A DNA stretch of 64,000 nucleotides from Xanthostigma xanthostigma (lineage: Eukaryota; Arthropoda; Insecta; Raphidioptera; Raphidiidae), in the NCBI GenBank assembly GCA_963575645.1, contig OY754464.1, positions 4,588,001 to 4,652,000 on the forward strand, given 5' to 3'. How positions within the stretch are numbered: position 1 is the stretch's first letter; the number at the start of each line of letters is the position of its first letter. The notes beneath the pieces were generated by a model that was given only the letters and a program-made list of their open reading frames with translations, was not told the origin of the DNA and searched no databases. The position numbers and the translations under genes were made by a program. This document shows positions 9,569 through 58,400 of the stretch, in pieces.

Positions 9569-10080
9569 CAGTGCCGGATTAACATATAAGCAAATTAAGC
9601 AATTGCTTAAGGCATCACGTCTCAGGGGGCACCAAGAAGCACAACTCAGAAATCAAAAAATTCCCCCCCTAAACCTAAAGTACCTCACTAAACCGTGTCA
9701 ATATTTTTTTTTCTTTTTGTCATGTTCTCAAAAATTTGATCTATACTGGGTTGTCTTTAGAAGTATAAAAGTTAAAAATAATTTATTTTTGAAAATGGAA
9801 ACGAAAAAAACATTATTTCTTAAGGGTTCAATTTTTTTAATTTTAAAGTTTTGAAAATTTTTTTCTATTAATTGTAGGTATAAGTATGCCTAAGGTCCGA
9901 TTTTATAGACAGCCAAATTTTCAATGAGAGCATTGATTGTAAAATTCAATTTTTTTCCCTAAAAATATGCTTTTTAACTTCTTTCTATCAATTTGATTTT
10001 TTTTATAAACTGAACATATTAGAGATGGGACCCATAAACAAGAAATGCTTAGGGCATCAAGAAGTCGTAATCCGGCACTG
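9569..10080. mobile_element. hAT-like element (CAGTGCCGGATTA ends)
   Basis: Inverted ends CAGTGCCGGATTA and TAATCCGGCACTG, with the 8-bp duplication ATTAGTAT at 9561-9568 and 10081-10088. It is 512 bp with no coding sequence. It inserted into the tail of the SINE-like repeat. Confidence 0.87.
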
Positions 10081-13324: not shown

Positions 13325-14344
13325 CTATATTATAATAAAAACTAACTTTAACATAACTCATCTAAAAAGTAATTATCTGTTAATTAATGTATATTTTCAG
13401 AGTTAAAAAAAAAACGATATTGACGTCGTTATGGTTTTTTTATCAAAATCGAATCAGCCGTATTTTGTTTAAAAATACTGCAAAAAAAGTGGATTTCACA
13501 CGAAATCTCGCGAATAAAAAATGAGATTGACTTTGTTAGGGTGCCAATCGAAACCTTATGAACTTCAAGTATGATTTGAAAGAAATTTTATCAGAATCGG
13601 TCCAGCCATATTTTTTTTTTTTTGTTTCAACAAAAAGACTGCAAAAAATTATATTTCAGGATTTTTTGAAAAATATTTCTGGAGTTTAATTTGTTAAATA
13701 TCTACATGTATTTAATATTCAATATTGACCATACTGGGAAGTTGGTTGTGTGGTCGTCTTTCAGGGTCGGTCTTGTAGAGTCCCAATAAAACGAGTCACT
13801 CATTGTTTCAAAATGTAGTAATATAGACATTATTATCAAAATGTTTGCCAATAACGGCCGTTCCAAATATTTAATCGATAAGTTACGAAATAGTGACAAA
13901 ACAAGGAAAAACCACTTAATGATAAAAGTGACACGGAAAACATATTTACGTACACTCATCGATATTATCTTTTTATATCGCCTAGTCAAAAAAGGTTTTT
14001 GTAAATGCATATCAGACAAATCTGTACTAAATTATACAATAGTGAATCTGTGTGCAGCACATGCTGAAATGACCACTTAAGACAAATTGTGTTTAAAAAG
14101 AATATAATAGAGAGATAATGGAGCGTAAAGATAGGGACAGAATAAGTGGTGTTACATCAGATAAATCATAGAAAGGGGCACATTTTTTGCTGCCAGCAAC
14201 AAATCACATTCTAAACGACACCGGTGAAAACAAATCTATATCAATGTTGCCAAATGTAACTGATCAATGAATGATGTAATTGATAAAACATGGATTACTA
14301 AAAATGATACTTTCAGGTCAGTTATTGATGGTATCAGTGATATA
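13325..14344. repeat. Decayed dispersed repeat
   Basis: Contains two roughly 150-bp units with GATTTCACACGAAATCTCGC and ATCGGTCCAGCCAT. Similar units recur at about 41380-41700. The part from 13841 to 14080 has overlapping open frames on both strands, but I recognise no protein family there. Confidence 0.4.
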
Positions 14345-14904
14345 CAGTATGTAAACGCGTAAGGTGCACATAGGGAAATTAGCATTGGGAAAAAATACTT
14401 GGATCAGAGTTAGCCATGACTGCATTAATTGTTATTTCTATTGAATTATCGTGGTAATCTTGAGGATTTCTATTTTATTTGGATTTATTTTTGTTTTACT
14501 TGGCTTTTTTAATAATAAAAGTTCTTTTTAATTTTTTTGTACAAAAATAAAACAAAAAAACAACTCCATCTGTTTGGAAACATTTCATTCAAAAATTGTC
14601 TGACTGGTATGACATATGCGCGTTGGTAAATCAGTGACCCAATGTCTTTAGGTTCAACACGAATAGGCGGAGATATTTGATCTCGCACCATATTTAAGTA
14701 TTTTTGGGAATTTAATGTCCCATTAATAAAAAAAGTCCGATTATGTTGTAATCATTTGAATATTTTCTTCGGTAGTATACACATTCATATTGCAAAAGAA
14801 TATTATCTGTCAAATTGAAAAACAAGATTTCAAAGCTCACTCTGATCCAGTCATTTTTTCCCAATGTTAATTTCCCTATGTGCACCTTACATGTTTACAT
14901 ACTG
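14345..14904. mobile_element. Mariner/Tc1-like deleted element, family 2, copy 1
   Basis: Inverted ends CAGTATGTAAACGCGTAAGG with arms of about 65 bp, flanked by TA. On the minus strand 14691-14509 encodes a transposase fragment containing VRQFLNEMFPNRW, a motif of DDE_3 transposases. The rest of the enzyme is missing. A second copy lies in the opposite orientation at 22930-23482. Confidence 0.8.
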
Positions 14905-15250
14905 TAGATAAGATAAATTTTGAAATGGGTAGAGCCAGTTTTTACCCTACACTTTATTACTTTCCTTTTCCTCAGAGCCGAAATTTGGTAACGTTGCAAA
15001 TTTGACAATCTGTAGCAGCCAAATCACCATGGAGACCACATGAGTATTGTTTTACCTTAATATTTTTCTCGAAAGGGACATTTTGTGCGATTTTATTGTG
15101 AATAAATATATATATTTTTTTAATTTCGAACTGTTCGCGATTTTTAAGAGTATTTAAAAATAGGGGAATTATAAAACGGTCGAATAAAAAAAAAATTTGG
15201 GGACTGATGATGAGATACTGTTTTAATAACTTGAGATATTAAAATAATAG

Positions 15251-15361
15251 TTGGGTGACTAAATTACTAAGTGAGCGACTAAATTACTAAGTGAGCGACT
15301 AGATACCTAAGTGAGCGATTAAATTACTAAGTGAGCGACTAAATTACTAAGTGAGCGACTA
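15251..15361. repeat. 20-bp tandem repeat, about 5.5 copies
   Basis: Unit GTGAGCGACTAAATTACTAA, nearly identical copies, ending GTGAGCGACT. A single inverted unit occurs at the other end of the element (about 15950), so the array grew at one terminus. Confidence 0.9.
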
Positions 15362-15486
15362 GAATGCCTTCGGTAATTTTGAAGCAGATATCTTCTTTTG
15401 TTTTTACTTTTTATTTCACTTTGAGACTACAACTTAAAACTCACATTTTCATGAAGATTGAAACACACCGCTTTTTTTTGATAAAG

Positions 15487-15708
15487 GGGTATGCGAATTG
15501 TCTCGCAGTGAAACGGGAAGGGGCAAGTGTGGAGTTTTTAAAAAATAATTCCGGGGTGAACGATAAACGGGTATGCAAATTGTAATTCCGGGGTGAACGA
15601 TAAACAGGTACCTATGCGAATTGTCTCGCAGTGAAACGAGAAGGGGCAAATGTGGAGTTTTTAAAAAAACATTTCTGGGGTGAACGATAACGGGGTATGC
15701 GAATTGAA
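15487..15708. repeat. Tandem array of the GGGGTGAACGATAA family, copy 1
   Basis: Repeated blocks AATTCCGGGGTGAACGATAA and GGGTATGCGAATTG alternate with a longer unit holding TCTCGCAGTGAAACGGGAAG. This is the reverse complement of the array at 56361-56569, with a few substitutions and a CTATG insertion near 15612. Confidence 0.85.
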
Positions 15709-16236
15709 TAGTTAATTGTTTGAATAGAACTGCGTTTTCTAAAAAATGTATATTTAATTGACAGATGCCGCTCAGAATAAATAAATCATTTGCCAAATTT
15801 TGAAAAAAATGCAGGACGTAACGTTGACACTCAAACAAATATTAGGTCGCTCAAATATTATGAAGTTTCCCCACTTTGTATTTTAAGTAGCTCAAATGGA
15901 TGTTTGTAAGATGCTGTTTTGTTGATTTCTCGTCACGCGCAGTCAGTCGCTCACTTAGTAATACAGTAACCCAAATTGATTATTTTTGTCACCCAAAATT
16001 GTAATTTACAGTCACTCGTTGAAATACTACCCTTAAAAATAGTTAAGTAGTGCTATGTGTGTAAGAAATCTAGAAAACCTTTTTTCAAGAAAAAAAAATA
16101 AGCAGAACGTGAAAGAATGTGTTTCAAATAATAATTATAGAGCACATTTTGCAACAATAAATATTTATTGCCAAAATTATAATATTATAACGGCACATAT
16201 TAAATTTAGTTATTTCTTATAGCTACATACCTATGA

Positions 16237-20510: not shown

Positions 20511-23500
20511 TTATAAATTTGTTAAAACATATTCCTGTAAATTTGTCCAAGAACCTAACGTGTTAGCTCTACTTCCTATACACATTTCTCTTTGAGCTAG
20601 TTCCATGTCTGGAACGCAATTTATTTTATGATATACATGCATTAAACTAGGATCACAACTTCTAAAAATAGTTATGTTGGAATTTACAAACTTTTCATAC
20701 AAAGTAACATCTTCCAACCCCCAACCTTTTAATGTTGTATTAAAACCCCCTATTAAATCTAAATCACACTTGTATACACTCACAATACCATAACCAAAGT
20801 GTCTCCAGTACCCGGCGTTTTCGTTTGTATTAAATGGCGCACTAATATTTTTTGAAACTGTTTGTTTGTATTCGGTATTAATAGCATCACACGAAATATT
20901 TGTATAATCATTTACAAAAATTGGATTGTATTGACTAAAAATTACCGGGAAATAGACTTGACTTCTTTTGACAGTATTGATTCGAGAATTCGTTAATATA
21001 TCTTTCGAAAATATTATATCCACATCGATAAAAAACAACAGTGCATCGTCTTTGAATCGGTGACTACCGATTTGTAACGCTTCCCCTCTTGAAAAAGGTT
21101 TGTTCAACACTGGTATAATTAACAAAGAATTCTTCATTGTTTTATATTTTGCTTTAAGATCACTTATAATCGCGGCGGTATTTACATAATCACTAGACTG
21201 CTCGAAACTTGGATAGATTATGATCGTGAGGGAAACCTTTTCATTATTTTTGAGAAAGGTTTCTTCAAAATAGTACATAAAACGTCTGAACGTTTTTAAG
21301 CGTCCCGATAACGGAAGAATAAAGTTAACTTGAATACAGCTATATTCATTACAAGGTTTCTTGTTAAAAAGCGATGGCAGCAAATTTATATTTCGTATCT
21401 TCAAAAATTCAAATGCTGGATTTAGCTCATTGTCATTTGGACCACTCAACGGAATTTCTCTAATTTCAATACCTACAACAAAAGAAATTCCAATTATTAG
21501 AAAAAAATGTTCGTAATTCAAACTAAAATTTTTTTTTTTAAATACCAACAGTAAAGTTCACTGTAAAAATGGATCACTAGATCGGTACGGTAGGTATACT
21601 TATAATGTAAAATTATAACATAGAAAAAAGTGTGATTCACCGTGGGGGAAATGTTCTACTAAGTAAGTAAATTTTGCTCTGTCGACTAACGAAATTCTAG
21701 TAACTAAATAAATATAGTTTAAAAAAAAATAAAAAACACGCTTTATATCGAACTAAAAAGTAAAAAATAATTTAAAAAAAAAAAAGCTTAAAAAGCGTGG
21801 GGCGCTTTGTTCCACATTTTCGTACATCAAGCGCCCCACGCTTTTTAAGCTTATTTAAAAAAAATTTTTTTTTACTTTTTAGTTCGATATAAAGCCTGTT
21901 TTTTAGTTTTTTTTAAACTACATTTATTTTTCACTTTTTAGTTTGATATAAAGCGTGTTTTTTAGTTTTTTTTAAACTATATTTATTTTCCACTTTTAAG
22001 TTCGATTTATTGTCAAAAATTTGCCGAAAAAAAATAAATAATTTCTGCGTGGACGGGATTAGAACCCACGACCCGTGATTCCGAGAGTTGACGTCAGCTA
22101 AGACCCGTGCCTTAGACCACACGGCTAGCCAGTGTACTTACAGAGCTGGCATATTATACCACTATATAAACCACTTTGTAGTCCAAACGAGTTTACAAAC
22201 ATACATACATACTTACATACATACATACAAACTTACAAGTGAAACTAATATAAAGCGTGTAATATCGGCCTGTAACTAAATTTTGCCGTCATCTAGTTGT
22301 CGCCTTTAGCAAAAGCCAAGTTATAATCCAACGCATACACAAAGCAAGCGTCACGCGCTAACATCTATTTATGCTACCCTCCATACATCAATTGAAATAT
22401 TAGTATCCGAATTTCGCTGTTATCTAGACGTCAACTGAAGCCATGTTTAATCCAAAGCACACAAACGTTTCGTCCTCCCATAAAAGTTTGGCCTCATTTG
22501 CACAGTTTTACTCCCGATCAAACGCGCCATTAGATGTTTCAGCTGTTACATAAAAGCTGGCATTATCGCCCCTAGAATACCTAAACCATAGAACATATTA
22601 ATTTCTAAAAATTCAACTGCAATACCGACCTGTGAATGTTTGCTGTAAATAAGCATGCCTGCGTACAGGCACCGTCATCTTATGTCCACGGTATTTACGA
22701 TAAACCAGCAGCATGTCCAGTACCCAGTCTACGCCGTGCTGCACGTTCAGACGACGGTAGCCGTAGAGAACCTCGCGGAAGTCAATAATACGGCCTCTTT
22801 GTTTCGAGTACTTGTTTATATTTTCCATGAACTAAAATTGAACATAGCGTCGAATTATATAGAGGTTTGACATAATACACGAGTGGCGTTTAGATCAAAT
22901 GTAATGTCTAATCCGTCATTTTTTATATACAGTATGTAAACACGTAAGGTGCACATAGAGAAATTAACATTGGGAAAAAATGACTGGATCAGAGTGAGCC
23001 TTGAAATCTTGTTTTTCAATTTGACAGATAATATTCTTTTGCAAAATGAATGTGTATACTACCGAAGAAAATATTCAAATGATTACAACATAATCGGACT
23101 TTTTTTATTAATGGGACATTAAATTCCCAAAAATACTTAAATATGGTGCGAGATCAAATATCTCCGCCTATTCGTGTTGAACCCAAAGACATTGGGTCAC
23201 TGATATACCAACACGCATACGTCATACCAGTCAGACAATTTTTGAATGAAATGTTTCCAAACAGATGGAGTTGTTTTTTTGTTTTATTTTTGTACAAAAA
23301 AATTAAAAAGAACTTTTTATTATTAAAAAAGCCAAGTAAAATCAAAATAAAATAGAAATCCTCAAGATTACCACGATAATTCAATAGAAATAACAATTAA
23401 TGCAGTCATGGCTAACTCTGATCCAAGTATTTTTTTTTCCAATGCTAATTTCCCTATGTGCACCTTACGTGTTTACATACTGTATATTGAGATTTTACTT

Positions 23501-29500: not shown

Positions 29501-31164
29501 ACACTAATCCATTAAATTCGTTATATCTAATTGAATTAAGTGATATCAAACAGAACTGGTATAAAAGACAGGATAGGATTTATTACTGTCATAAAAAAAA
29601 TATAACTTTTGATAAAATATTAACTACTGTTTAAGATATGAGCTGGACAGTGCTGAGACCATATATCTATATTAATTAACTATTTGAATCATTGCCTATC
29701 TACTCAATGTGCGATGAGTGAACGCAACAAAACGTATATCGAAAATATATCTGCGTCTCTTTCTTCGATGTAATTCCCTGATTTCTCCGATGTTAGGATT
29801 GGTTGATGTACTTGCATTCAATCTGAATAAAATATCTCTGTTTCAAGAACTTTGTCTTTTTCTATGACGTTAACATGGGCATACCCAGCGTTTGGCCCAG
29901 GAGGGGGCAAACTAGAAATTTCTTCGGGTCCCCCACGCTTGTTTTGCCCTCGTGGATACGCCAGTGCTTACGGCGTAAAAAAAGACAAAGTATATGTTTG
30001 CACCCTAATGGTTCGATTGCGATTTTATTCCTATGCTCAGTATAGAATAAAAGTATATGGCTGAGACTCATTGCTTGTAACTTGTAATAATGCTTAAAGC
30101 ACTTTGTAAAACAGATGGTCAATGCTTAGAGCACTTGCTACACTTATTAAGCACGTATTAATAAGCGTTCAACAAACTTACGCCTATCTTTTATTAAACC
30201 TATTTCGTTTAATGTTAGAGATCAATTTCTCGTATGTTTAAGCCCAAACTTCCCCATCAATTAGAAATATTGTTCATGTTCAAAATCAATCTAACAACTT
30301 AATGCTGAAAGTCAAGATTTAAGAAGTTACTTTAAAACGCTTGATGCTTAATTTTTAAGCGATTGAGTGTTTATGAAACTGATCGGTGCTTTGCCCAGCT
30401 CTGCATTGTAGACTTACCTCATAGGACCAAGTGCATGAAATACCCGCGTACTGTTTTACGCATCTGCCCAACTCAACATCTTCGTGTGTCGTATAGAAGT
30501 TCTTAAGACAGTCCTTGATGTGTGGTGCAATTTTCCTCAATGTCTCGCGACTTAATATAACACCAGGACCGCCCATGCAAAAGTTCTCATCGTAATCCAA
30601 CGACAGCGTACCAATTTCTTCGTTGTTACCGCGCCCTGCCTGGCCGATATAGTGCAGTTTACGACTGTCGATCGATCGAAGAAACAGTTCTAATCTATCG
30701 GTCCTCACGTAAATGTCGTCATCGGCTCTAAAGAACCATTCAAATTGTTCAATGAAATTATCATGGATGTATTGCAGCATCAGAAACGATTTCTTCTGCG
30801 GTGGATAGTTGTCGTCAACTGTTTTTAAAGCTACGAGAGGCAAATTGTTGCTATGTGAAAATTCCGAACTGAAGAACATAATTCTTCCGTTAGATGATTG
30901 TAAGCTTGATCCCCAAGTTTCGTAGACAGCTTTGGCGCGAGTGTTTAAATATTTTGCCGCTGTCAAAACACCAACAAAAACTAATGAACTATTTTTCGGT
31001 TGGTTTTTGTTTTCATTTGTTTTTTGCACGTAGCTCGGTACATCGTCCGATTGATTATGGCACATATTTATTTCGTTGCGATTGTCTTTTAATTGATTAT
31101 GCAAAAACACACCGACAATTATGCCCGCAATTAACTGTATTATTATTCCTTTTCTCCGGGCCAT
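20511..31164 (-). CDS. CHSY1: Chondroitin sulfate synthase (CHSY1 type), 6 exons
   Basis: Exons on the minus strand: 31164-30418, 25227-25087, 24999-24837, 23898-23741, 22831-22630 and 21472-20511. Phases match at every junction. The product is 790 aa; human CHSY1 is 802. Seen: an N-terminal signal anchor (residues 7-21); a GT31-type domain starting LVFVGVLTAAKYL (61-) with the metal-binding DDD at 148-150 and THEDVELGRCV; a linker with VHRAITVHPVKNP, RGRIIDF, YGYRRLN and MTVPVRRHAYLQQTF; and a C-terminal GT7/CHGN domain with ILPLSGR, D620-V-D622 and GWGLEDV (residues 719-725). Family knowledge: a Golgi type II membrane enzyme alternately adding GlcA and GalNAc to build chondroitin. The exon 5 donor is weak (ACAG|GTCGGT) but is the only one in phase. 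A minus-strand AATAAA lies at 20484-20479, just past the stop. All but the 86-bp second intron hold transposons. Confidence 0.95.
21726..21975. repeat. AT-rich foldback repeat in CHSY1 intron 5
   Basis: Arms AAAGCTTAAAAAGCGTGGGG and its inverse around CGCTTTGTTCCACATTTTCG, extended by inverted ACTTTTTAGTTCGATATAAA. The right arm is partly tandemly repeated (21870-22010). Confidence 0.65.
22045..22135 (-). repeat. tRNA-like SINE head in CHSY1 intron 5
   Basis: The minus strand has an A box (TAGCCGTGTGGTCTAAGGC) and a B box (GTGGGTTCTAATCCC), but an over-long middle and unpaired ends. CATA tetranucleotide repeats at 22200-22230 lie nearby. A tRNA-derived repeat, not a tRNA gene. Confidence 0.6.
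22290..22570. repeat. Dispersed repeat, CAAAGCAAGCGTCACGCGCT family, copy 1
   Basis: Shares AATCCAACGCATACACAAAG, CAAAGCAAGCGTCACGCGCT and following blocks with 35640-36010 and 46870-47110. The last part is also seen at about 26400-26500. Class unknown. Confidence 0.6.
22930..23482. mobile_element. Mariner/Tc1-like deleted element, family 2, copy 2 (CHSY1 intron 4)
   Basis: Same ends as 14345-14904 but inverted overall, so the transposase fragment (23143-23355, with SLIYQHAYVIPVRQFLNEMF) reads on the plus strand, opposite to CHSY1. TA flanks both sides. The two copies differ by scattered substitutions only, which suggests fairly recent mobility of this deleted form. Confidence 0.8.
23940..24264. 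mobile_element. 325-bp MITE, TAATACGCGCC family, copy 1 (CHSY1 intron 3)
   Basis: Inverted ends TAATACGCGCCACGAATCTA and the inverse of that start (GATCCGTGGCGCGTATTA), TA duplicated at 23938-23939 and 24265-24266. The right-hand neighbour in transcription is CHSY1 exon 4, whose acceptor is only about 40 bp away. Confidence 0.85.
24338..24520 (+). mobile_element. SINE/RTE-tail repeat in CHSY1 intron 3
   Basis: Starts ACTAGCAGTCCGTACCGG and ends TTTTATATAGATAGATGA. It shares the CCAAATTTCATGATGAT and GGAGTTACCG blocks with 5748-6367. Confidence 0.6.
24557..24790. mobile_element. Foldback MITE in CHSY1 intron 3
   Basis: Arms of about 75 bp, starting TCCATTCGGAACCCAAAGGA and including GTGAAAAATGCGCCGAACTG, are repeated inverted at 24710-24790. 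It lies within about 50 bp of the exon 3 donor. Confidence 0.7.
25884..26015. repeat. 66-bp tandem duplication with inverted CCAAT boxes
   Basis: Two near-identical units, each with CTACCGCGTTCCTATTGGTC followed by ACTATGCA and TCGTACAGTTTCGGCTC. ATTGGTCC is an inverted CCAAT box. The third unit is absent. Confidence 0.75.
26528..27025. mobile_element. Tigger-like MITE (CAGTGTAAACTCGTTATAACG ends)
   Basis: Inverted ends CAGTGTAAACTCGTTATAA and TTATAAAGAGTTTACACTG, with a further internal duplicate of the left end at about 26645-26720. TA precedes the left end. The same end motif is seen in the larger element 43863-45064. Confidence 0.7.
27429..27690. mobile_element. Partial copy of the GGCCGCTGCACACGAGG MITE family
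   Basis: Matches the left half of 42876-43322 (TAGTTTTCT, GTGCTCGCTTCAAACGAGAC, TTTGTGGATAGA, AACACAGAGCAAAACGTGTC), with the right terminus missing. The SINE-like repeat 27701-27841 abuts the broken end. Confidence 0.65.
27701..27841 (-). mobile_element. SINE/RTE-tail repeat, minus orientation
   Basis: Reverse complement of the 5748 family head: ends CAACCGGGCGGGACCGCTAG and carries ATCATCATGAAATTTGG in inverted order. Confidence 0.6.
28700..28850. mobile_element. Palindromic MITE, GTGTGTTAATTCGCACAC family, copy 2
   Basis: Carries GTGTGTTAATTCGTACAC near the left, GTGACGAAACATATA, ATTAAAACGAAGAGAACG, then the inverted start. Related to 11046-11232. Confidence 0.55.
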
Positions 31165-31471
31165 TATCTACGCTCTTATCACATTTTCACTGTTTTTCAT
31201 TTTATACTAACACTTTATGCTTTCGTTACCTTACACTGCAGTCTTCAATTCTTTTTTGCACAAAGAATGAAGATTCGAATATTTCTGTCCATAGTGTCAC
31301 CATTTTTATCTAGTTTTTAAAAAAAGTACATTATGTAACGATTGTGTTTTTAACCGGCTTCATTTAGGACTCTAATTTGGGACATATAAATATTAGAATT
31401 AGTTTTATGCGTGTATAAAATATGGTGTAAATCAATCGGAAGAGAAACAACTTTTTGACAAGCATATAGAA

Positions 31472-31966: not shown

Positions 31967-33090
31967 TAACAGTGAATAATTCGTCTTTAAAAAAAAAGTT
32001 TTAATAGTTTTACCCGAAATTTACTGTCGGAAACTGCTGAGGTATATTTTTTTGTACTTCAAACTCAACCGGAAGTGTACAATCATATTATTTTTCAATA
32101 TATTTTTTGTTACATTTTCAAAATCTCTATTTTTTGCTCTATGAATCCATATAAAAATTTCGTAAGGTTACATAAGAAAATATTCGAGAAAAACGTTAGC
32201 AATTTATTAATTTACACTAGTGATGTGCCGGATATCCGTATCCGCGGAGCTCCGAGGGAGAAACAAGATCCGTATCCGTATCCGTTAGTTTTATGGCGGA
32301 TCTTTTACGGATCTTTTACCTTATTAATTTTCAATTCATAGATGAAATTTTATATATATATATATATATAGGTGATTAGGTAATAATGAAAAACTGTTAA
32401 ATTCCATTCAGATTATTTTTTATTTCTTAAAATCGCATTTGGCACCTTTATATTGCAAAAATTTATCGTAGTGAGTACCATACCAATAGTACATAACTCA
32501 AAGGTACTAATAAAAAACTATCTTTATAATGAGATATTGCACATCGATTTTTGGAAAGAGACAATCTGTTATGAGAGTTAACTCTTAAAGAAGTCAATAA
32601 CTTTTTCCCTTAACAGATAGTCTCTTTGCAAAGGTCGATGTGCAATATTTTACCGCCGCGTACTCTAAGAAAGTTAAGATCCGTATCCGTCTCCGCGGAT
32701 CTTGAAACCAAATATCCGTATTCAGATCCGTATCCGCGGATATCATTTTTAACGATCCGGCACATCACTAATTTACACATGTGTGGAATGCTATGAAAAA
32801 TAATTATTACTGTGCATTTAGATAATAAATTGATAACGCTTTTCTCGAATATTTTCTTATGTAACCTTATGAAATTATATGAATTTAAAGAGTAAAAACT
32901 GAAGATTTCGAAAATGTAAAAAAAATATATATTTCGATTTGAAAAAAAATGCATGTACACTTTCGGTTGAGATTGAAGTACAAAAAAATTACCTGGGCAG
33001 TTTTCGATAAATCTCGAGTTGAACAATAAACTATTTAAACTTTTTTTGTATCTATTACGTGATACACGAATGATTTCACTGTTATCACGA
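31967..33090. mobile_element. Long palindromic element split by a hAT-like MITE
   Basis: The left arm (GTGGTAACAGTGAATAATTC to about 32217) and right arm (about 32780 to TGTTATCACGATAA) are inverted copies of about 240 bp, with moderate divergence. The MITE 32218-32770 sits between them. A further relative of part of one arm occurs at 45585-45730. Confidence 0.7.
32218..32770. mobile_element. hAT-like MITE, family 1, copy B
   Basis: Same ends and interior as 1020-1531, with its own 8-bp duplication ATTTACAC (32210-32217, 32771-32778). It carries a (TA)n tract at about 32350-32371. It lies at the centre of the older long palindrome 31967-33090. Confidence 0.88.
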
Positions 33091-36685: not shown

Positions 36686-37334
36686 CAGTGGCGGATCCAC
36701 GGGGGGGGGTCGGTTCCAAACCGGGGGGGTTTGGAACCGACCCCCCCCCCCCGATTTTTGATTCTACGGAAGGGGGGTTCCGTAGAATCAAAAATCCCAG
36801 ATTAAAATCTTACTGCGCGATAAAAAGAAAAAGCTTTTCATGTTTTTCATGAATTCTCCGCAACATTAATTCTGTCGGAGGTTAAAGACTTATCTGAGAA
36901 ACACTATGGGGCAAGAGCGTCTCAATGGACTTGCTTCTTTAAACATTCATGATCTAACTGAGGACGAAATTCTCCAAACTTTTTTTCAAAAAGCCTCGGA
37001 AATTGCAGAATACATTAAAATCAATGTAGCTTTGGTTCACTCGAACTATACAAAAACGTGCTTATCATCCGTTTGGGAGTTGCAAGGCACTTTTGTCACC
37101 GCGTACCTAACTATTATTGTAAAGATAGAATTCATTTAATTGTATTTCATATAAACGAGTGTGTTGGTAGAATTGACTTGAACTTCGCATGTACATAATA
37201 CACTATGGAATAATTTATATACCTATATAAAATGATCTCAAAAAACTGCATATCAGTTAGAAAAACATTTTTCACAAAAGGAGTAAAAATTTTTCAACCC
37301 CCCCCCCCTTGCCGTAATTCTGAATCCGCCACTG
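36686..37334. mobile_element. hAT element remnant with C-terminal transposase fragment
   Basis: Ends CAGTGGCGGATCCAC and CTGAATCCGCCACTG, with the 8-bp duplication ATCGATAG (36678-36685, 37335-37342). The plus-strand frame from 36906 begins MGQERLNGLASLNIHDLTED, which matches the hAT dimerisation region (family knowledge: this block lies at the C terminus of hAT transposases). A G/C-tract hairpin occupies 36700-36755. Confidence 0.85.
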
Positions 37335-45300: not shown

Positions 45301-48300
45301 ACTTACTTTTTACTCGTTTTTAGAGATCCCTGTGATCCGGGACTTTTTTCGGTGACGAAGTCGTTTGTAAGCATGTTAATATTACGATGCTATGTAAAAA
45401 TCGACTATTGTATTGTTTTTGGTAGAGGGCGGACAAGATAGCCATATTGGCTTGTCCGTACCCTAATAAAGAATTATTATTATTATACTCAATGTTTCTA
45501 ATAAATTGTAGATAGTAAAAACAAAAAACACGTGAAAATTGTACAAAATATTTTCTCTTCTCAACGATCATTTCGGACATTGTCTCAATAAATTTATCTA
45601 AAATTTTCGTAAGGTTACATAAGAAAATATTCTAGAAAAAACGCTGTCAATTTATTAAACACACGGTAATAATTATTTTCATAGCACTCCTTTTTGTCGA
45701 ATATTTTCTCATGTAAAATTTTAAATGACTATTGGAAAAAAAATGTATACCGATGAAAATTTGGCGATCCTAAAAGTATGTGGGCGGAGCCAAAATGCCG
45801 ATATAAATTTATTAATCGTGTAAGGTGATTTTCAAAATACTAGCGATGCGCTTTTGTTGCCAGTCATAGATACGCAATAGGACTATAATTATAGTTGAAG
45901 GACTTCAATGGGTTAAATTTTCTATTTCGATATGTTATGAAAAATATCAAATTACATTTTTTTTTAAATATGATGCTGTTTGTGTTTGCAACTAGCATAG
46001 CGAATGGTACACGATGTATCATTATGATAGTCACTTCATTAAACAGCACAGTTATTAGTTCTTGGTATTCGTTGCTCTCAAACGTGTCGTACTTTTAACC
46101 AAACCAAAATTAAACATATTTCATTATTAGGGTGGCTTACATTTTCAAGATAAAATTTCATTTGAACAAGTCGACTATATTAAGTTATCAATCAAAAATC
46201 GGAAGAGAACATTACTTAGTTTATTGGTGTTAAGCCTTAAGGCCGCTGCACACGAGGCTAGAAACGCTACTAGGAGCTCTGCAAGCCGGTAGGCTGGGTA
46301 CGAAGCTGGAAATGACGTCACTGCGGGCTGCCTTTCTAGCTCAGAAAATAGGTTTTAAAATTAGAACAGGGCCTATTTTCCCTGCTAGATTTGTTGCTAG
46401 GTATGAGCAAGAACCAATCAGGAAGCAGTATCTTCACGTGGGCACTTGAACAAACGCCCACTTGGCGTTATTCTGCTAGACAACAGACACGTTTTGCTCT
46501 GTGTTTATATGCTGTCACTGCGCGCGCACCAGATCTATCCACGAAACACGCTTGAAAAACAGTCTCGTGTGAAGCGAGCACTTAACAGCGATCAAGAAAA
46601 CCAGCGCTAGAAAACTATTAGGCAAATCTAGCAATGAATCTAGCAGCGTTTCTAGCCTTGTGTGCAGCGGCCTTTAGTAAACAAATCAAACGTTTATTTG
46701 GCTCCTCTTATTGCAAGCCTCCAGTATATGCACGCTTGAGATCAGATCATTAGCGATCCTGGTGGTTGATCGCCTGTGAGAAACAGGCGGATAGACGGAC
46801 ACATGAAGTGATTCTATAAGCGTTCCGTTAAAAAAATAATGTGAGTCGTCGTGGGGGGACGCCTGGTAGATGAGAAACATAAATTTAAGCGAAATTCTAG
46901 TTACTAAATTTCGCCCTGTAACTATATTTTGCCCTGTCATCTAGTTGTCGCCTCTAACAAAAGCCAAGTTATAATCCAACGCATACACAAAGCAAGCGTC
47001 ACGCGCTGTCATCTAACGAAATGCTAGTAACTAAATTTCGCCCTGTTATCTAGATGTCGTAACGTCCTCCCATAAGAGTGTCGCGCCAATTGCAAAGTTT
47101 TACTCGTCGTTACGTTTCAAGTTGCTTACTCAAATGTTCTGAAATCATTTGTGAAATTTAGCATAAGAAAATAAGTTTTATTACGGAAATTGGATTGCCA
47201 ATATGATAGAGAAACTGAAATATTTTTGTTTTCAAATAAATAAAATTGTCGACCAATTTTTTTCAGAATACATATTAACAAAAATAAAATTATAAATCAA
47301 TAATACAAAATATGACGTTTTGATCTGGGTTTAGATCTTCTTCAGAAATATCTAAAAATATAAAAAAATAATTAGTAAATTCTACTTATTTTATAATAGA
47401 ACGCAGAAGTTAACTGAAAAAAATTGGTCGACAATTTTATTTATTTGAAGAGTTCTATTCAGACGTTAATCAAAGATTTAAAATATTTATGTGTTCATAT
47501 TTTTTTTTCCAGAAAATTATTTGTTGGTGGCTTATCATGGGAGACATCGCAAGAAAATTTACAGCGATACTTTACGCGTTACGGTGAAGTTATCGACTGC
47601 GTTGTAATGAAAAACTCTGAATCAGGCCGCTCGCGTGGTTTTGGCTTCGTTACATTTGCAGATCCGGCAAATGTTGCTTTGGTTTTGCAAAATGGACCCC
47701 ATACACTCGACGGCAGGTGAGCATCAATATTATTGCTTCGAAAAAAAAATTGACCTTGTTTTATACTTAGGGAGGTTGATGCGTTACAGTCCCAATCAAA
47801 AGTAAGTCGAATTCTAAATGGGAACTTTATTACAAAAGGTTACAAGTCGATGATACCAATAAATTATTGTCATAAAGGCATAAATCAATTTTTTTTTTTT
47901 AATATTAATTATTTCAATATTTTACTTTATGGACTAACTTTTGAATTTTTTGTACAAAGTTAGGTTAGAAAAAATTTATTTATATAAATATCTGTATTTT
48001 ACATATTTTTTGCAATAAATAATTAAAAAAAACCGGTCAAGTGTGAGTCGGACTCGCACACGAAGGGTTCCGTACACTATGTACTTTTTAAATACTTTTG
48101 TAAAAGAAACAAGAGAGGCGCTATAACAATATGTAACCAGTGGGAGTATGCAAGTAGTTCGAGAATTTCAAGGCGTGAAATTTTACATAATTCACCCGAC
48201 GTTTTTATATTATAAACACTTTTTTAACAAAAATTTCTTATAGAATAAAATAATATAAAGTTTTGATAAATACACCATTATATCAAATAACAATGTTATA

Positions 48301-49457
48301 GAAAAAATCTCTGTTGCGCATGCGCCGATTTCTCCAAAAAAAAAATACAAAACTTTAGAATAATAAACCATTATGAAAAATACACCATTATTCTATAAAA
48401 ACAATGTTATAGCACATATCTTTTCTGCGCATGCGCCGCCTTTCCCCCTAAAACTTTTTACAAAACTTTCTTTTAAAATAGAATAAATAAACCATTATGA
48501 CATATATACTATTATTATATAAAACAACGTCATTGCATATATTTCTTTTGCGCATGCGCCAATTTTTCCCAAAAAATTTACAAAACTTTTGTAAACATAG
48601 ATAGAATAATAAACCGTTATGAAAAGTATACCGTTATTATATAAAAAAACAGCCTTATAGTATATATTTCTTCTACGCATGCGCCGATTTTTTTCAAAAA
48701 TTTATTTTACAAAACTCCTGTTAAACAAAATAATAAGCCCTTATGAAAAGTATACTATTATCTTATAAAAACAACATTGAAATATATATTTCTTTTGCGC
48801 TTGCGCCGACGTCTCTCAAAAACAATAGGCCTCTTCATATTTGCATATCAAACATCCTCCCAAAATTTGGTTTCATTCCGCTCATCCATGGTGTTGGAAT
48901 GGTAAAAAATGTCAAAAATGACGTTTGCATCTGTCAAAGCAATATGTTCTAATAATTAAAATTAGTTATTCAAATCGTTAACTCAGAAGGCGTTGCATTT
49001 CACAATATATTAATGTCAAAAGACTGACTAATATTTGAAATGACATTCGTTTTTGAACAAATGCAATCTTTTTTTTAAGACAAAACATACGCAATTTTTA
49101 AATTCCCATAGTACATTATGCAACAAACGAAGACAGACGATCCCCGTGTATGCTATGGATTAGACAAAATTGAATTTATACATTATATTTCTATATAAAG
49201 CTGTATAAAAAAAGTGTTTTGACGAATTCTGTTATACAAAATCTATGTAAAATTTTCTCCTCTTTCGTTTAAGACAGGTCTCGAAACGATCTGATTTAAA
49301 TTGAGCGAATTATCAGCAAAAAACTTAGTTTGCTCCTCTTTTGGGAGTTTTGGGGGGTTTTTAATTATTTGTTGTTCTAGCGGCAATAGAAATACACAAT
49401 CTGTGAAAATTTCAACTCTCTACCTATTACGGTTCTTGAGATACAGCCCGCTGACAG

Positions 49458-49492
<35 letters not shown>

Positions 49493-52400
49493 GACAGCGG
49501 AGGCTTAGTAATAGGGTCCCGTTTGACCTTCAGGTACGGAACCCTAAAAAGAAATTGGAAGTAATAAAAATTAAAATTAAATCATTAAAAACTTGAAAAT
49601 TCAGTTAAAATTGTTAAAATTGTCAAAAATAAAAGTCCATAATCGAAAAGTGCCAAGGTTTAATATTTTTTTTTTATTGATTAAAAGTCTCCTAATTAAA
49701 TTGAAAAAAATATTAAAACATGCGTAAGACATCGATGCTTTACATAGTTACTTTTCAGAACTGCTGACATTATTTGGTTATTTGCAAAAAATTAAAATGT
49801 ACCGTTTGCATGCTAGGTTGACATGTTTTCCATAAGACTGCATGTAAAAGTCTTTTTCAATTTTTAACTTTAGAAATCTCCTAATGATTTTGGATTTTTT
49901 ACAGAAAATTTTGTCATAAAAAAATTATTAAAAAAACTTTATTTTTGATTTTTTTCATTACTTTCGTTTAACGCCGCAACCTCCTTAATATTGTAGTTCA
50001 CACCTTCAAATAATATTTTATTCAACTCATGCGCGTTATTCATGTTTTATCATGCCTAAAAACCGAACCCTAAATAGCCATTTACCGACTGGTGACAATT
50101 ACTTGTCATAACTCAATGAAGATTCCTACTAGCTCGGCCATTGTGGAGTAATGAAAATAAACGTAACTATTTTCTGAGTCGTAACGAAATAGTAGGTAAC
50201 AACAACTCCGTTGTTACCCATTAAGGCTAAAATTGAGAGGCCGAATGTTTTCGACATGGAGTTTATTCATAACCGACTAACCTCAAACCAAAACATTGAA
50301 TCGTGCTGTTTGGTGCTGTTAGTATTGACAGTTTTTTTTATAAAGAAATAAATAGATATTTACAACATCTCATTATAATTAAAACATGAATAACGCGCAA
50401 TTGTTGAATAAAATTATGGGCGCAACTTGTAGGCTAAGTCATGACCTGTCAGCGCGATGAATGACTTAGACTACTAGTTACGCCAATAACTATTAAAATT
50501 CCGCCCTGTAAGTCATTTTTTCCCCTTTGAATAAAATAAGTTTAATATAATAATTAATAACTAATGCAGTCCTTCATTCAATGCAGTACAGACTTTATTA
50601 TGTACTAGTGGCCCGTCCTGGCTTTGTTAATGCTAATTAAAGAAACGCATAGAATTATTCAATAAAATTAATCGTAAACATGCACAAAAATTAGTTCGCT
50701 GAAGCACAACTCGCATAAGGAGCCGACGATAATGTTCGATTCTCGGCGTGCGCCTAACCGACCCCCGACTCGACACTCCGTGGCCGCGTTATATGGTCGA
50801 AGAACCTTCCTGAATAAAACTGGCGATATCGAATACAAAAATAATTTTATATATTTCGTCATCGAAGCGTTAATTTGTTTGCAGAACTATCGATCCAAAA
50901 CCCTGCAATCCCCGCACTTTGCAAAAACCTAAACGCGGAGGTGGCTATCCAAAAGTGTTTCTGGGCGGTCTGCCATCCAACGTTACAGAAACGGACCTTC
51001 GCACCTATTTCACACGATTCGGTAAAGTTATGGAGGTAGTGATTATGTACGACCAGGAAAAGAAGAAATCAAGAGGTGAGTCAAATAAAATAACGTCGAT
51101 AAAACAAACGCGTTATTCTCACATTTTCGTATAATTTATTCATTATATAAAGTAATCCAATGTTCAAGAATAGGTCATATGCATGTATTTTTTTTATGTT
51201 TTTAATAGACTCTTTAGTCAACCATAATACGAAAAAAATTGATAATCATTTAAAAATGTAATATTATAAGAAAAAAAATAATAAATTTCACATTCAAAAA
51301 TTGACAGTTTAAACAATCGGGCATGTTGGCGGGCTTATTTGACGTCATGATATACGCTGCATGTCAACCTTGATGTCAAATTGTCAATGTTCTAAATGAA
51401 GTTTATTTCTTGTTTTCTCTAAATACTGACAATCTTACTGTGAGACAACACAGTCGTCATGGAAACTGTTGTTGATATATACTTTGACGTCATGCTGCGT
51501 TTTGAAAATTCAAAAATAGCGCGTATTTTCTACATTTCTTTTTTATTATTTGTATTTTTTTGAGTGATCATATTAATAAAATAACCATTACGATATGATC
51601 AGGAACTAAAATATATTTCGAAATAAAAATTTAATTCAATTTGAAGCCTCATGCATATGACCTATTGTGAATATTTTACACAAGCAAGTGCAAGAGAAAT
51701 TTACATATCAAAACTTTTACAAAATCAATGTCTTTTTATTACAAAAAAATGACATTTTGAATAAAAAAAAATACTTCCGTTATTTGGATGCATTTTAAAT
51801 CTTCTTTTGTTATAATTTATGGTAAATGTACATATTTGAAAAAAAAAAGCTAGTAATCACAGTGTAAAGTTAACACATGGTTTTTAAATTTAATTTGTCA
51901 GTTGGTAGCTACATTTACTCCCCCGCTTTTTTTTGACAACTGAATTTCCAAGTTTTGTTTGTTTATTTTTTCAGGATTTGGTTTTTTGTCTTTTGAAGAC
52001 GAAGACTCTGTAGATCGTTGTGTCGCAGAGCATTTTGTTAATTTAAACGGAAAACAAGTAGAGATTAAGAAAGCCGAGCCACGTGACGGTTCCGGAGCTG
52101 GAAAAATGTCCGGCACAGACGCAAGCGCTTGGGGACCACCGCAAGCCCCTATGGGCATGATGCAAGGACCGAACGGTCAGATGGGTGGACCACCGATGAA
52201 TATGGGTGCGCCGATGGGCCCCAATATGCTGCAGGGCTACCAGGGATGGGGTACATCGCCCCAACAACAAAGCTACGCCGGTTACGGTACCCCGTCCGGA
52301 CCTGGGTCTTACCAAGGATGGGGTGCTCCGCCTGCTCCACAGGGACCACCACCACAATGGGGCAATAATTACGGAGGACCTCCACAACAACAAGGCTATG

Positions 52401-55400
52401 GCTCTTATGGTAAGTTTGCTAAATGTTTTTAAATTACAAATGAGCCTTTTTCACGAGAGCAGTGCCTCCGATTAACTACGCGGTGCAGCACCTGTGGTAG
52501 AGACAAGCATTATTTATTTCCCATTTAGCAACTTGTTATTTTGGTGATGGAAATTTATTGTTATAAATTATTATACAAAAGAAATAAAAAATAGTGTCAA
52601 TGCCAACAAAATATTGTAGTTTTGCTAGTTGTACTTCGAATAATCAATGAATTTTTATTGAAAGTAAACTAAATTGATAAATGCATATTCATTGAAAAAC
52701 ATAACCTCTATTTTTATAAATTGAAATTCATTAACTATAACTTTAATTTTTTTAATTTCCAAATATATTTAAGACTTTATTCTCAAAAATAAGTTGCAAA
52801 CCTAAAATTATTTTATACTTTTGGTATAATACATTTTAACAAGCAACTGTAAAGTAATTATATGAAAGTAATATATATAAAGTAATTATTATTATTATAT
52901 GCCTAACTTACTCACCTGTCGATGAATTTATTTTTTCTTCGTGAAATTTTTAAATTACAAGTTAGCGAGCATTTTAATGTTGCTATATTATTGTCTTTTA
53001 CGTTTTAAAATTTTATTTTGTGTCGACATTTTTTTTGCGTAATGTTTGCCTCTACCGCTGTACTAACGCTGCTAGTGGGAGTTTTTTCATAATGATGAAA
53101 ATGGCTCATTGAAAATTATTTTAAAAGTTTGCTTTTGTGAATTGATGTGGCCGGTTCAACGTATTGTTCCAAAACAGCTATTTATAATCATATGAGTAAT
53201 TATTAACAAAAGGGCTCATCAACTTTGTCTATATAGTAGCTAAGCGGATCGCTCGGAGTGCAGGCGACAATATTACACAGGGTGAGTCACACCACCCGTA
53301 TCAGTCGTTTTTTTCGAAAACGGTTAGTCGTAGAGAGTTGTCTCAAAAATCTGTATTATAAAAGCCCTAATGAAAAATCGAATGGTGATATTTTTTCCCC
53401 CCGGAAAGGTCGGCTTCCCTGTTAGTTTGCTCCGGAATGTTCAGAACTCCGGAATTTTAAATGGCACGATAGGTCGAAAGTGGTATTGTTGAAAAGATCT
53501 TTAAAAAATAAGCAAGTTTTGTAGGACATTTTTTTTTGTTACTGCCACCCCTGTTAAGTAATATTCGTTTGAAATTATTAAATTAACATGTCAGAATAAC
53601 AAAAAAGTCGGCATTTAAAATCTAGTTACCTAATTAAACAATGTCACAATAAGTTTTCAATAATTGCAATTGTTTTTTTTTTTGTCGGAAAATACTTCCA
53701 GGTACTCATAACATATCTAGAAGAGCTCTGCAGTGTTTAGAAGTAAATTGAAGACAGTTTGAACATTTGTGACATTGTTTAATTAGGTAACTAGATTTTA
53801 AATGCCAACTTTTAAAATTAAGTTTGTTATTCTGACATGTTAATTTAATAATTTCAAACGAATATTACTTAACAGGGGTGGCAGTAACAAAAAAAAATGT
53901 CCTACAAAACTTGCTTATTTTTTAAAGATCTTTTCAACAATACCACTTTCGACCTATCGTGCCATTTAAAATTCCGGAGTTCTGAACATTCCGGAGCAAA
54001 CTAACAGGGAAGCCGACCTTTCCGGGGGGAAAAAATATCACCATTCGATTTTTCATTAGGGCTTTTATAATACAGATTTTTGAGACAACTCTCTACGACT
54101 AACCGTTTTCGAAAAAAACGACTGATACGGGTGGTCTGACTCACCCTGTATACTGCATAATTCACTAATAATACATTAAAAAAAGACAATACATAAAACA
54201 GTATTTCGAATCTAGAGGAGCCATTCAGAGCATTGCCAATATTTCTCAGTCCTTTGACATTTGTGTGGCTGTTTTATTCATTCGATCACGATTTCACAAA
54301 TCGCAAGACCAATTTGTTACAACATAAACTTCATTTGCTCCTTGTTATATAATAACTCACGAATGCCTATATATTCAGAGCTCTCGGACGATGAAAAAAG
54401 TTTTATTAATAACGTCAAGTTTCTTGTCTTGCACTGACCACAATATTTGAAGCAATACAGTGCACACTGAGTGCACTCGATTGGGATTTTACTTCGAACA
54501 TGCGCCATCTACTCAGCATTTCGGTGAACTATCCTATGCGAAGCGTTTCATATAGTAAAGCGTTGCGCGCTAACCATTTTATAAATATTTATTGTTTACA
54601 ATTATGGAAGCTACACACGCCATTGAAAAATCGAAAGAGAAGCATGATATGTGTTGTACAGTACCTAATTGTGTTAGCAGATCAATTGCAAATGTTGATA
54701 TCGAATTATTAAATTGAAAGGTAACAGCTGATTATACGTCGTCGATTTCATGCTGTTTCTCTTTCAAATTTGACGTTGGCATGCAGAAAGCAACAAAGTT
54801 AACCTTACCACAGCTTGTATAAATTATTCTGCCACATTTTATGATCTGATTTGCACTCGAGATTTTCGCATACTGTCGATGCAAACGCTTCTCATAGGGC
54901 GGTGATATTGAATATTTTGAGTTGGGCTCCGCCTACATGTAAAATCCCAATTTCTTTCTTTTTTTTTACCCTCAACTGAACACAAAAAACTTGTAGCGAA
55001 TGCACTGTAACTGTAAACATTCTCTAGTCAGAGCGTTCTCAGCAAGCACACGGGCAGTCAAAAGAAAATGTTACGATATGAGTATTTAGTCATATGATTA
55101 TAATATAGAACTTGCGTAAAATATCCATTTAAAAAAATGCACGTTTGAATGTACTGTTTTTTGTTAGCGACAGTGTTCAAATAATTAAATTATTTGTTAA
55201 TACACACAGTCAAAATCGATGTTCTTGGCGCCACACGTAAGGCGCGGTTATACACTTGATAATAATCGACACAAGTAAACAAAATCGTAACTTTGCCTGT
55301 AATCGCAAATTTCGACTTGGATGTACAGCTTGCACATTCGAACCCAGTTTTAGCTGTTTTTAATTTTTTTGTGTTACGTTTGTTCATTTAAAAACTACTG

Positions 55401-58400
55401 AACCGATTATGATCGGACTTCACTGCAGTGCTGGTACACGTCAGAGAATGAAGTTCAGAAAGGCGTAGCTTACTAGAATCGAACTATGGGCGATGGCAGT
55501 GGAAAGTCGTTGCAATAATTACATGGTGACAGCGCAAATAATTATTTTTATTTGTGTCCTGTGCCATAACCGAAAAATGGCAAATCGATAAAACATCCAA
55601 CTGTAATGTTAACTGTGTCGTGAACTTCGGGAACCGTTGAGCTGTAGATATGGAGTGCTGATGCCTTTCTGCGCATACAAACTGCGCAGGAAAGAGAAGG
55701 CGATAAACACAGCATATGTAATATGTCTCTTTTTTGCCACTTGTATGGCGTTGAACAAGGACGGAATGGTTACTACAATTATCGCTGTCTCTGCCTGTCA
55801 TTTTGCTGACACAGCACTAGCACTTCATATGTGCAGCTCATTGGCGGGAGCAAGCAAAAAAAAAAAAGAGAAGACGTTAAATATTGTTTTTTTCCCGAAA
55901 ACCTCATAAATTTGAGCAGAGATAAAAGTGGATTCGAGCGGTTAAAAAAATAAAATAATCAGTAAATATGAATCACGTAAGTTAATGACATTTTTGTCTT
56001 AAAAATGGAAGATTCTGTTGATGCTTCGAATCTCCCTGTCAAACGTTTAGAAGTTATCAATTTGATCACTTTACCTTTTGTCGACAATCGGAAATTGTTC
56101 TCAAAAGTTGTGTTCGAAAAGCCAGTTTCTAGTACATTATTGTCACCTGTCAGAATATAACCACAACAATATCATTTTGTCAAGAAAACGGTGAACGCGA
56201 AGAAAATTTGTATTCACGGCTTAAGAAATAGTGAATACGGTAATTATACACTTTCATGGTCACCTGGTTTTTTGGCTCTAGAAAATCGAAAAATAGATGG
56301 ATTTCAATGATCTCGGTCTCAAAAAGTTCCATTTTACGGCGGATTTATGAAAAAAATTAGTTCACCCCGGAATTACAATTCGCATACCCGTTTATCGTTC
56401 ACCCCGGAATTACAATTCGCATACCCGTTTATCGTTCACCCCGGAATTGTTTTTTTAAAAACTCCACATTTGCCCCTTCCCGTTTCACTGCGAGACAATT
56501 CGCATACCCCTTTATCGTTCACCCCGGAATTACAATTCGCATACCCGTTTATCGTTCACCCCGGAATTGTTTTGAAATTTTTTTTATCAAAATGCATAAA
56601 TTGGAACATTCGTGTAAATGTGATTTAGAATGTGAAATAGAATACATTTTAGGCTGTAAAATACCGAAAAATTAACTTTTTTGAAAATTTTTTTTTTCAA
56701 AATATTAATTTTTTTATGTAGATTGCGAAAAAAAAATATACGAACTTGATTCCACGACGTCAGAAACAGTTATAAAGGATTATATGTAGAAAGTCAATTT
56801 TTTTTTGCATTTAAAGTCATGAAACTGTGAGAAATATTGATTTTTTCAATTTTCGTATTTTTTTCCATAAATCCGCCATAAAAACGAAGATTTAAAAAAA
56901 AAATTCATCGAAATCCGATGATTTTTCGATTTTCTAGAGCCAAAAAACCAGGTGACCGCGAAAGTGTATAATTACCGTGAATACTTACTGATAATAGCCA
57001 ATTTCAATAATACTATTTATTAAAAATTTCTGAAAACTAAATAACTAATGACGCGTAGGATCAATACAGAACACCCAAGAACTTTTGCTATTTGCCACGA
57101 GTTATATATTATCATCGCGCTTCTACTTAAGGGAGTTCCCTCCATAAAAATTAACCAAAACACGCCATTAAAATATTGTGAATATTCGGAGTTCAGTTAA
57201 AAATTTGTAAATATTTAAAGCCGATATTTACGAAAGCTCGTTGCAAAATGCGAACTCATTTCTCGGAGCTTCCGTAAAAAGATGCTATGCAATAAGTACG
57301 ATGTGTACTTGTTGAGATTGTGAACAAGCCACTAGTTAGGTGAAATATGGCAACGTCGTAAGCGCGCTAAAATTTGAATTCATACACTAAATGTTTTACG
57401 TTATCAACTATTACTAAAAGGTATATAAAAAACAGAAATACTCATTACATAACTCCCCATTAATAACTTTCCATAACTGGTAGTTTACTCAGTGAACGGA
57501 CAATTATTTTACCGATAAAATTCAATACTTATAGTAAAATGTGGAAGTTCACGAAAAGCATATCAATAGGTATACATAAGTACTTATAGATTGTATTCCA
57601 AGGGAAAAAGTACATCCCAATTTCCATTTTTTTTAACGTTTGAAAAAAAAAGCAACAAAATAGTTGTACTAATTACAATAATTAATATACACAGACGCGC
57701 CATTTTGAAACAGCTGATACACCGTAAGTCTCTTACACAGTAGTGCCAACTGTATAATCATGAAATTTCAAGCTGAGACGTTGCCACTCGCCTACCTCTG
57801 AAAACGATTGCTGCTTTTTCACAGCTCAAATTTTTGTTCATAACATTGGCAATAGCATGCTAATCCTATGCTTTTACTATAGGAGTTTACCCCTTGCCTC
57901 GCTTCTTCCCGCTCTACCAGTGGAACTTCCTTAACACTTTCTTCTGTTTCTTTAAAATAACATTCTCACTATAGATATCGCGTCTATCGTGATAATAACA
58001 ATGAGAAAAATTGACAGGTAATGTGATAAGATAGATTTATTTTTTATTGTGAAGCGTTACATAAAATAAATCTATCTTATATTTTTTGATCCACATACCT
58101 GAAAATTTTTCATATTATGTGTGGTATTACGCGCAAGGTCTCTTTGTGAGGGCGGGGCCGATCGAATCGAATTGGTTCGATCGGCCCACGACTGACTAGA
58201 TTTATTAATATAATTTGGTGCATTTGTTGATTTGATAAAAAAACTAGTACAGTTTATTTAAAACTGAGAGTAGTTTTTTTTTCTATAATTAATTAATTAA
58301 TTTATAAAAGAAAAAGTTTAATTTCACAAAAAATAATTAATAGTAGATGCGTTTGTTGCAGGTCCAACTGCTGGCAGTGGTGCGGCCAATTGGAATAGCT

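Follow-up and report, generated by a model that had tools for sequence, protein, structure and literature searches.

A tandem-repeat array shared by separate transposon families of Xanthostigma xanthostigma and its probable passage between them

The 64,000-nucleotide stretch of DNA analysed here (the window) contains two TIR elements of distinct families, designated e1 and e2, which carry the same tandem-repeat array, and some copies of e1 elsewhere in the genome share with e2 not only the array but also adjoining non-array sequence. We consider it probable that these two families came to share the array when an internal block of e2 was copied into e1 by repair, and that array size subsequently shifted and the array spread onward. 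The initial annotation had proposed that one tandem-repeat family travels in at least two transposon backbones, which was borne out, further contexts being found as well. The seeding of satellite DNA across genomes is a long-standing question, and in this single genome several of the steps can be followed, namely the transfer of a block, the change in array length, the carriage with clean duplications and a copy of about a hundred units. The case exposes a step whereby transposons can spread and seed satellite DNA.

The element e1 (56239..56976, + strand) is a non-autonomous TIR transposon of 738 bp with the array inside it. Its left inverted arm of 121 bp (56239..56359, +) is 82% identical to the right arm (56856..56976, -), with 54 of the outer 56 bases in common, and the element is bordered by the 8-bp target site duplication GTGAATAC, whose left (56231..56238) and right (56977..56984) copies match exactly. 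A window-wide scan for 8-bp duplications, in which at least 11 of 15 terminal bases had to match, gave 12 pairs, compared with 1 in one shuffled control. All 15 terminal bases match in seven of these pairs, e1 among them, and some of the others are located inside palindromes. Genome searches were run against the 623 Mb assembly (28 contigs, the window being on contig C1), with the best 40 candidates scored per query, so that copy counts are lower bounds. Dispersed copies of e1 were represented by 160 matches among the best 40 of 523 candidates, and its two ends were recovered, paired end to end, in 29 of 30 fetched loci, L050 being the exception. The flanking 8-bp duplication was exact in 19 of these 29 loci and carried one mismatch in 3 more, the pairs lacking an exact duplication thus numbering 10 of 29, with L044, which displays a 9-bp match at its ends, entered as not exact at 8 bp. 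If L046 and L048 are taken as a single insertion, as they appear to be, the independent exact duplications amount to 18 of 28. Likewise, nine extra e1 loci (L096-L104) included six exact duplications (that of L098 determined by eye) and two that differ at a single base (L097, by eye, and L103), and L099 was without a left end. These arms and duplications uphold the TIR transposon that the initial annotation had placed at these coordinates, and e1 has moved to new sites, as its duplications show.

No transposase is present in either element, given that no stop-to-stop frame of at least 150 aa in the window overlaps e1 or e2. With inverted ends, a duplication of fixed length, dispersed copies and no transposase gene, e1 qualifies as a non-autonomous TIR (MITE-like) element, and from duplication length we take hAT, P, Merlin or MULE to be the candidate superfamilies for e1 and e2. 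Two further details of the e1 boundaries were noted. At 56210-56219, 11 bp to the left of the duplication, the window reads GTATTCACGG, the reverse complement of the right boundary CC|GTGAATAC, and a hairpin may have been the target. In the copies L097 and L098, read by eye, both ends have changed together, GGTAATTATTTAC replacing GGTAATTATACAC.

The second element, e2, occupies 15163..16032 and is assigned to the - strand, on which its array reads as in e1. It is flanked by a 9-bp duplication, TTAAAAATA, at 15154..15162 and 16033..16041. The similarity of its outer arms alone is not significant (p 0.51, or 0.11 by anchored extension), so that its ends were placed by means of the duplication and the genome copies. 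With 15164-16032 as query, 18 of the best 40 candidates, among them the copy in the window itself, gave an unbroken alignment that starts at most 4 bases from the left end and stops at most 1 base from the right end, the other candidates giving partial or piecewise alignments. A G precedes the counterpart of 15164 in all 25 paired copies, and the start was therefore moved to 15163. The second element reported in the initial annotation is accordingly real, of a separate family and with the inverse array inside, but the ends then given, 15251-15974, are ruled out, as genome copies extend beyond them and they lie internally; a gapped duplication ending in AATAGTT (p 0.05), the first guess made here, was also dropped. 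Among 30 fetched loci, picked by likeness to the window's e2, 25 were paired (L064, L068, L071, L074 and L080 were left out), and the 9-bp duplication was exact in 14 of the 25 and had one mismatch in 6 more, 11 of 25 pairs thus lacking an exact copy. As its duplications show, e2 has also transposed. Its 20-bp array (15257..15361, +), previously described as terminal, is in fact subterminal, starting 94 bp inward from the element end, and diverged repeats lie on the other side of e2. Such subrepeats, which foldback-like elements have in their long inverted arms, are not displayed by the window's e1; a 5.3-kb e1-type copy, described below, has arms of about 460 bp.

The array is composed of units of 37 bp (S) and 83 bp (L), S being, by reading, L minus 46 bp of its middle, save one base. 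In e1 it runs from 56360 to 56573 on the + strand, a slight extension of the 56361-56569 assigned earlier to a 37/83-bp array within this element, and comprises S (56360-56396), S (56397-56433), L (56434-56516), S (56517-56553) and a partial unit (56554-56573). In e2, sequence comparison identifies the same units at 15480..15706 (-), in the order partial-L-S-L. The two arrays lie in inverse orientation with 92-94% identity in the two longest pieces, and the S and L consensus units of e1 are identical to those of e2. The G+C content is 0.453 in the array vs 0.273 in the rest of e1.

Beyond the units themselves, e1 shares with e2 a block whose non-array flank shows that more than the array is held in common. 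This internal block of e2 (15480..15764, -), which in the window's copy consists of the array and 58 bp of flank, is also present in a long form of e1, and when the 29 e1 copies were compared with the window's e2, similarity was restricted to e2 positions 269-553 (E up to 1e-5, same strand). Six of the 29 loci (L042, L045, L046, L048, L049 and L051) match the window's e2 for 58 bp past the array, and most e2 copies other than the window's have about 86 bp of shared flank, in which a hairpin lies. The long-form stretch matches 25 of 30 e2 loci continuously over about 115 bp at 88-96%, hairpin included, and the window's e2 copy (L052) in two pieces. A tree was built from a 106-bp segment of the block, of which about 86 bp are non-array, with 30 rows (7 of e1, 22 of e2 and L025) and an arbitrary root. 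The same six loci together with L082 make up one e1 clade (bootstrap 97, a value not settled, and SH-aLRT 94), enclosed by the e2 rows as an unresolved star. The L025 row, labelled e1 by its locus number, falls among the e2 rows and was not counted; it appears to be an array copy from that locus's flank and is read as e2. Since about 86 bp of e2 sequence from outside the array are present in seven e1 loci, which form one clade, the block moved between the families. Probably this happened a single time, with e2 as donor and e1 as recipient; given the arbitrary root and the e2 star, the reverse direction is less likely but compatible with the tree. The arms of e1 are the less diverged, with a median pairwise distance of 0.019 vs 0.047 in the more diverged e2, which is probably the older family. 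On inspection, the window's short-form e1 is what would remain of the long form after a deletion joined at GT. No array-free complete copy of e1 was found among the 29 paired loci, each of which has at least one core of the array, or in a search with the right arm alone, in which nine loci were read from the best 40 of 560 candidates; array sequence occurs in all nine extra loci L096-L104. At L050, which has one end only, an e1 right arm abuts other sequence and lacks an adjacent array. The acquisition of the array is therefore not documented by copies from before and after it.

Units of the e1/e2 array were also encountered in five more contexts, one of which is an autonomous Helitron. An 861-bp array from L037, with the order L-S-S-S-S twice followed by L-S-S-S and L-S-S, was used as genome query, and 23 places among the best 40 of 501 candidates have one array variant of 556-566 bp at 86-88%. 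Three of these 23 places were read (L087, L088 and L089), and two extended places (L094+L087 and L089+L095) contain a 7.1-kb element, e3, with 93.8% identity between copies and a 1555-aa stop-to-stop frame harboring Helitron_like_N and PIF1, a similar long frame being found in the second copy. Helitron ends were sought as 5' TC and 3' CTRR with no duplication; by eye, the 3' end is CTAG followed by T in the two copies, and the 5' end is TC in one and CC in the other. The remaining variant places would belong to the same Helitron. In both copies the array is located between the Rep/helicase frame and the 3' end. The array of e4 (L090) is enclosed by inverted arms that bear ACAAAATATCCCC-type subrepeats, that of e5 (L083) by CAAAACAACTC-type arms with 60 bp of the e2 right flank retained, and e6 (L084 and a place near C1:39061.6k) displays, by eye, another common left flank. 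Among 20 array loci picked from the places that a genome search listed, 15 match e2 on both sides, whereas L108, L115 and L124 match it in only about the first 48 bp of its right flank and have a common left flank, by which they were designated e7. L109 has no match to the test flanks and is assigned to e7 by its left flank, compared by eye, and L110 combines the e2 right flank with e4-like and e5-like sequence. The L consensus is the same in e1, e2 and e4, and differs by 1 in e5 and e7, by 2 in e6 and by 7 in the Helitron; that of S in e5 and e6 is the same as in e1/e2, and differs by 1 in e7 and by 2 in e4 and the Helitron, where e4, e5 and e6 are represented by one locus each and the Helitron L by 4 units from two loci. 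Elsewhere in the window, a 59-bp array with a palindrome at 21706-22006 resembles by eye the left flank of the array carrier L110, and a tandem array of about 122 bp with GCGCATGCGCCGA lies at 48246-48822, a similar stretch being seen, also by eye, to the left of the e1 copy in L085/L093.

Several explanations other than a transfer between e1 and e2 must be weighed against these data. An independent capture of the array by each backbone, from an existing satellite or from the Helitron and with no e1-e2 transfer, is unlikely in our view. It would agree with the occurrence of the array in further contexts (the Helitron variant places, e4, e5, e6 and e7), and a model in which transposons take up tandem repeats that already exist has been published, at least as outlined in the available part of a review (PMC12628747); however, it leaves aside the roughly 86 bp of non-array e2 sequence in long-form e1 and the part of the e2 right flank kept by e5, e7 and L110, and the Helitron L units differ at 7 positions where e1, e2 and e4 are identical. 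If array and flank were instead a small mobile element of their own, nested in different transposons, the right border TTTATCAAAA common to e2, e5, e6, e7 and the e1 copy L045, and the left borders, which are often AATTCGCATACCC, would find a ready explanation. Nevertheless, we regard this as quite improbable, as an unsystematic reading noticed no inverted ends or duplication at the block borders, e5 and e7 share the right flank over different lengths, and the left join of e4 shows, by eye, a 5-bp overlap, GACAA.

It is highly improbable that the array was inherited by e1 and e2 as offshoots of a single family that have since diverged. The motif GGnAATTATAnA is found in the ends of both, exactly at 15164, 56239 and 56965, but when one mismatch is tolerated its 17 matches in the window amount to no enrichment (shuffle mean 13.2, with 17 reached by 16 of 100 shuffles), and the duplications are of 8 bp vs 9 bp, the inverted ends differ, and the 29 e1 copies bear no likeness to the window's e2 outside the block. 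By these duplication lengths, ends and lack of likeness we read e1 and e2 as distinct families. The concern raised in the initial annotation, that both backbones might prove to be one family with mis-drawn ends, was justified with respect to the ends of e2, but the families stay distinct; nor is the array confined to unique, non-mobile sequence, since it is carried in dispersed copies of e1 and e2 with duplications.

Based on the transfer from e2 to e1, which we favor, we hypothesize that an ancestral e1 received an internal e2 block comprising an AT-rich hairpin, a flank and the S/L array, most likely when an ectopic e2 copy served as template for the repair of a break, or of an excision gap, within e1. 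The block would have been joined at poly-T and poly-A runs, a junction composition that is suggestive of break repair. A later deletion with a 2-bp (GT) join may then have removed the hairpin and the flank, giving rise to the short-form e1 of the window, and the array within e1 would have gained and lost units by unequal exchange or slippage, up to 102 in one copy. Ordinary transposition of the elements, by putative transposases, carried the array to new sites, and the same kind of copying may have placed it, sometimes with part of the e2 right flank, in the other backbones. More tentatively, the S/L array could be a hitch-hiking module that crosses between transposon families, a satellite in this manner spreading by changing carriers instead of arising afresh within each transposon; its dispersed copies would offer ectopic homology, from which the repair of excision gaps would copy the array into unrelated backbones.

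Whether array length varies between insertions had been posed as a check in the initial annotation, and it does. When counted as 15-bp cores with at most 3 mismatches, by which diverged units can be missed, the array ranges from 1 to 18 cores across 29 e1 loci and from 1 to 3 across 25 e2 loci. L046 and L048, 36 kb apart, have 8 vs 7 cores and the duplication GTTCTGTA in common. Their left flanks are 99.2% identical over 1400 bp and their right flanks 99.6% identical over the initial 272 bp, beyond which L048 has an extra stretch; the two seem to stem from a single insertion that was duplicated together with its surroundings. Such length differences point to unequal exchange or replication slippage. 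In addition, an e1-type element of 5338 bp at C1:39062034-39067371, with an exact 8-bp CTTTATTT on both sides, contains 92 forward and 10 reverse cores, 102 altogether, between recognisable ends, the forward cores being spaced mainly by 37 bp (75) and 83 bp (9). The presence of a 102-core array inside an e1-type element with an exact duplication makes the seeding of satellite-sized arrays plausible, as had been suggested; on the other side, the array of this copy, about 4.5 kb, is the longest seen, none longer being found among the candidates scored (best 40 of 501 with the 861-bp array query).

Transposons with internal arrays have been put forward as possible satellite seeds in several reports, as far as their available parts indicate (PMC4079207, PMC12628747, PMC8268682, PMC5139131, PMC7492417), and another is listed as concerning a minisatellite within a bacterial MITE (PMC4596501). 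Tetris/TIR-220 of Drosophila virilis, a foldback-like element, is non-autonomous like the elements described here and has internal tandem repeats of variable number, and the available description mentions alleles differing by one unit and longer satellite-like arrays of its unit; however, its repeats occur in its own TIRs, from which they were suggested to originate, whereas here the array lies between the arms, on several backbones and with e2 flank in e1 (PMC4079207). Cg_HINE of Crassostrea gigas is likewise non-autonomous and genome-dispersed with short central satellite-like arrays, but it is portrayed in the text at hand as Helentron-type and without duplications, each array cluster being tied to a specific flank pair (PMC7492417), in contrast to one array with several flank pairs and carriers that include 8- and 9-bp duplications. 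A TIR-type MITE with a captured tandem repeat of variable copy number is also known from Xenopus, miDNA4, which according to the portion of a review that covers it may give satellite arrays, AT-rich microhomology being proposed; it is described there with one host family, and that portion describes no transfer between two families (PMC12628747). The mollusc satellite/transposon networks resemble the present case in their abrupt junctions between array and mobile element, for which insertion or recombination was proposed, but they involve the Helitron superfamily and anonymous DNA, with no traced family-to-family transfer in the description available (PMC5139131). Judged by the descriptions of these known cases, the present one stands out by having one array on several backbones of different transposition type and a traced block.

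Other features of the window include an 879-bp near-perfect palindrome at 53274-54152, 90% self-complementary and one of several palindromic elements, and another inverted-repeat element that is represented by two copies in opposite orientation, with 95.7% identity, at 14340-14911 and 22923-23487. Elements with 8-bp duplications and CAGTG/TAGTG-type ends, presumably hAT-like, are located at 902-1735, 1020-1531, 9569-10080, 32218-32770 and 36686-37334, that at 1020-1531 being nested in the one at 902-1735. Matches of viral contigs to the 15-bp core, in 21 stretches, are alike to e1 or e2 over only 15-28 bp and were discarded as due to chance, and a frame from the window, compared as protein with viral contigs, had no match. 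Among the open frames at 20511-21557 (-), 30355-31167 (-) and 51944-52432 (+), glycosyltransferase-like exons were recognized by eye along with an hnRNP-type RNA-binding exon, one window frame resembling animal hnRNP-type RNA-binding proteins.
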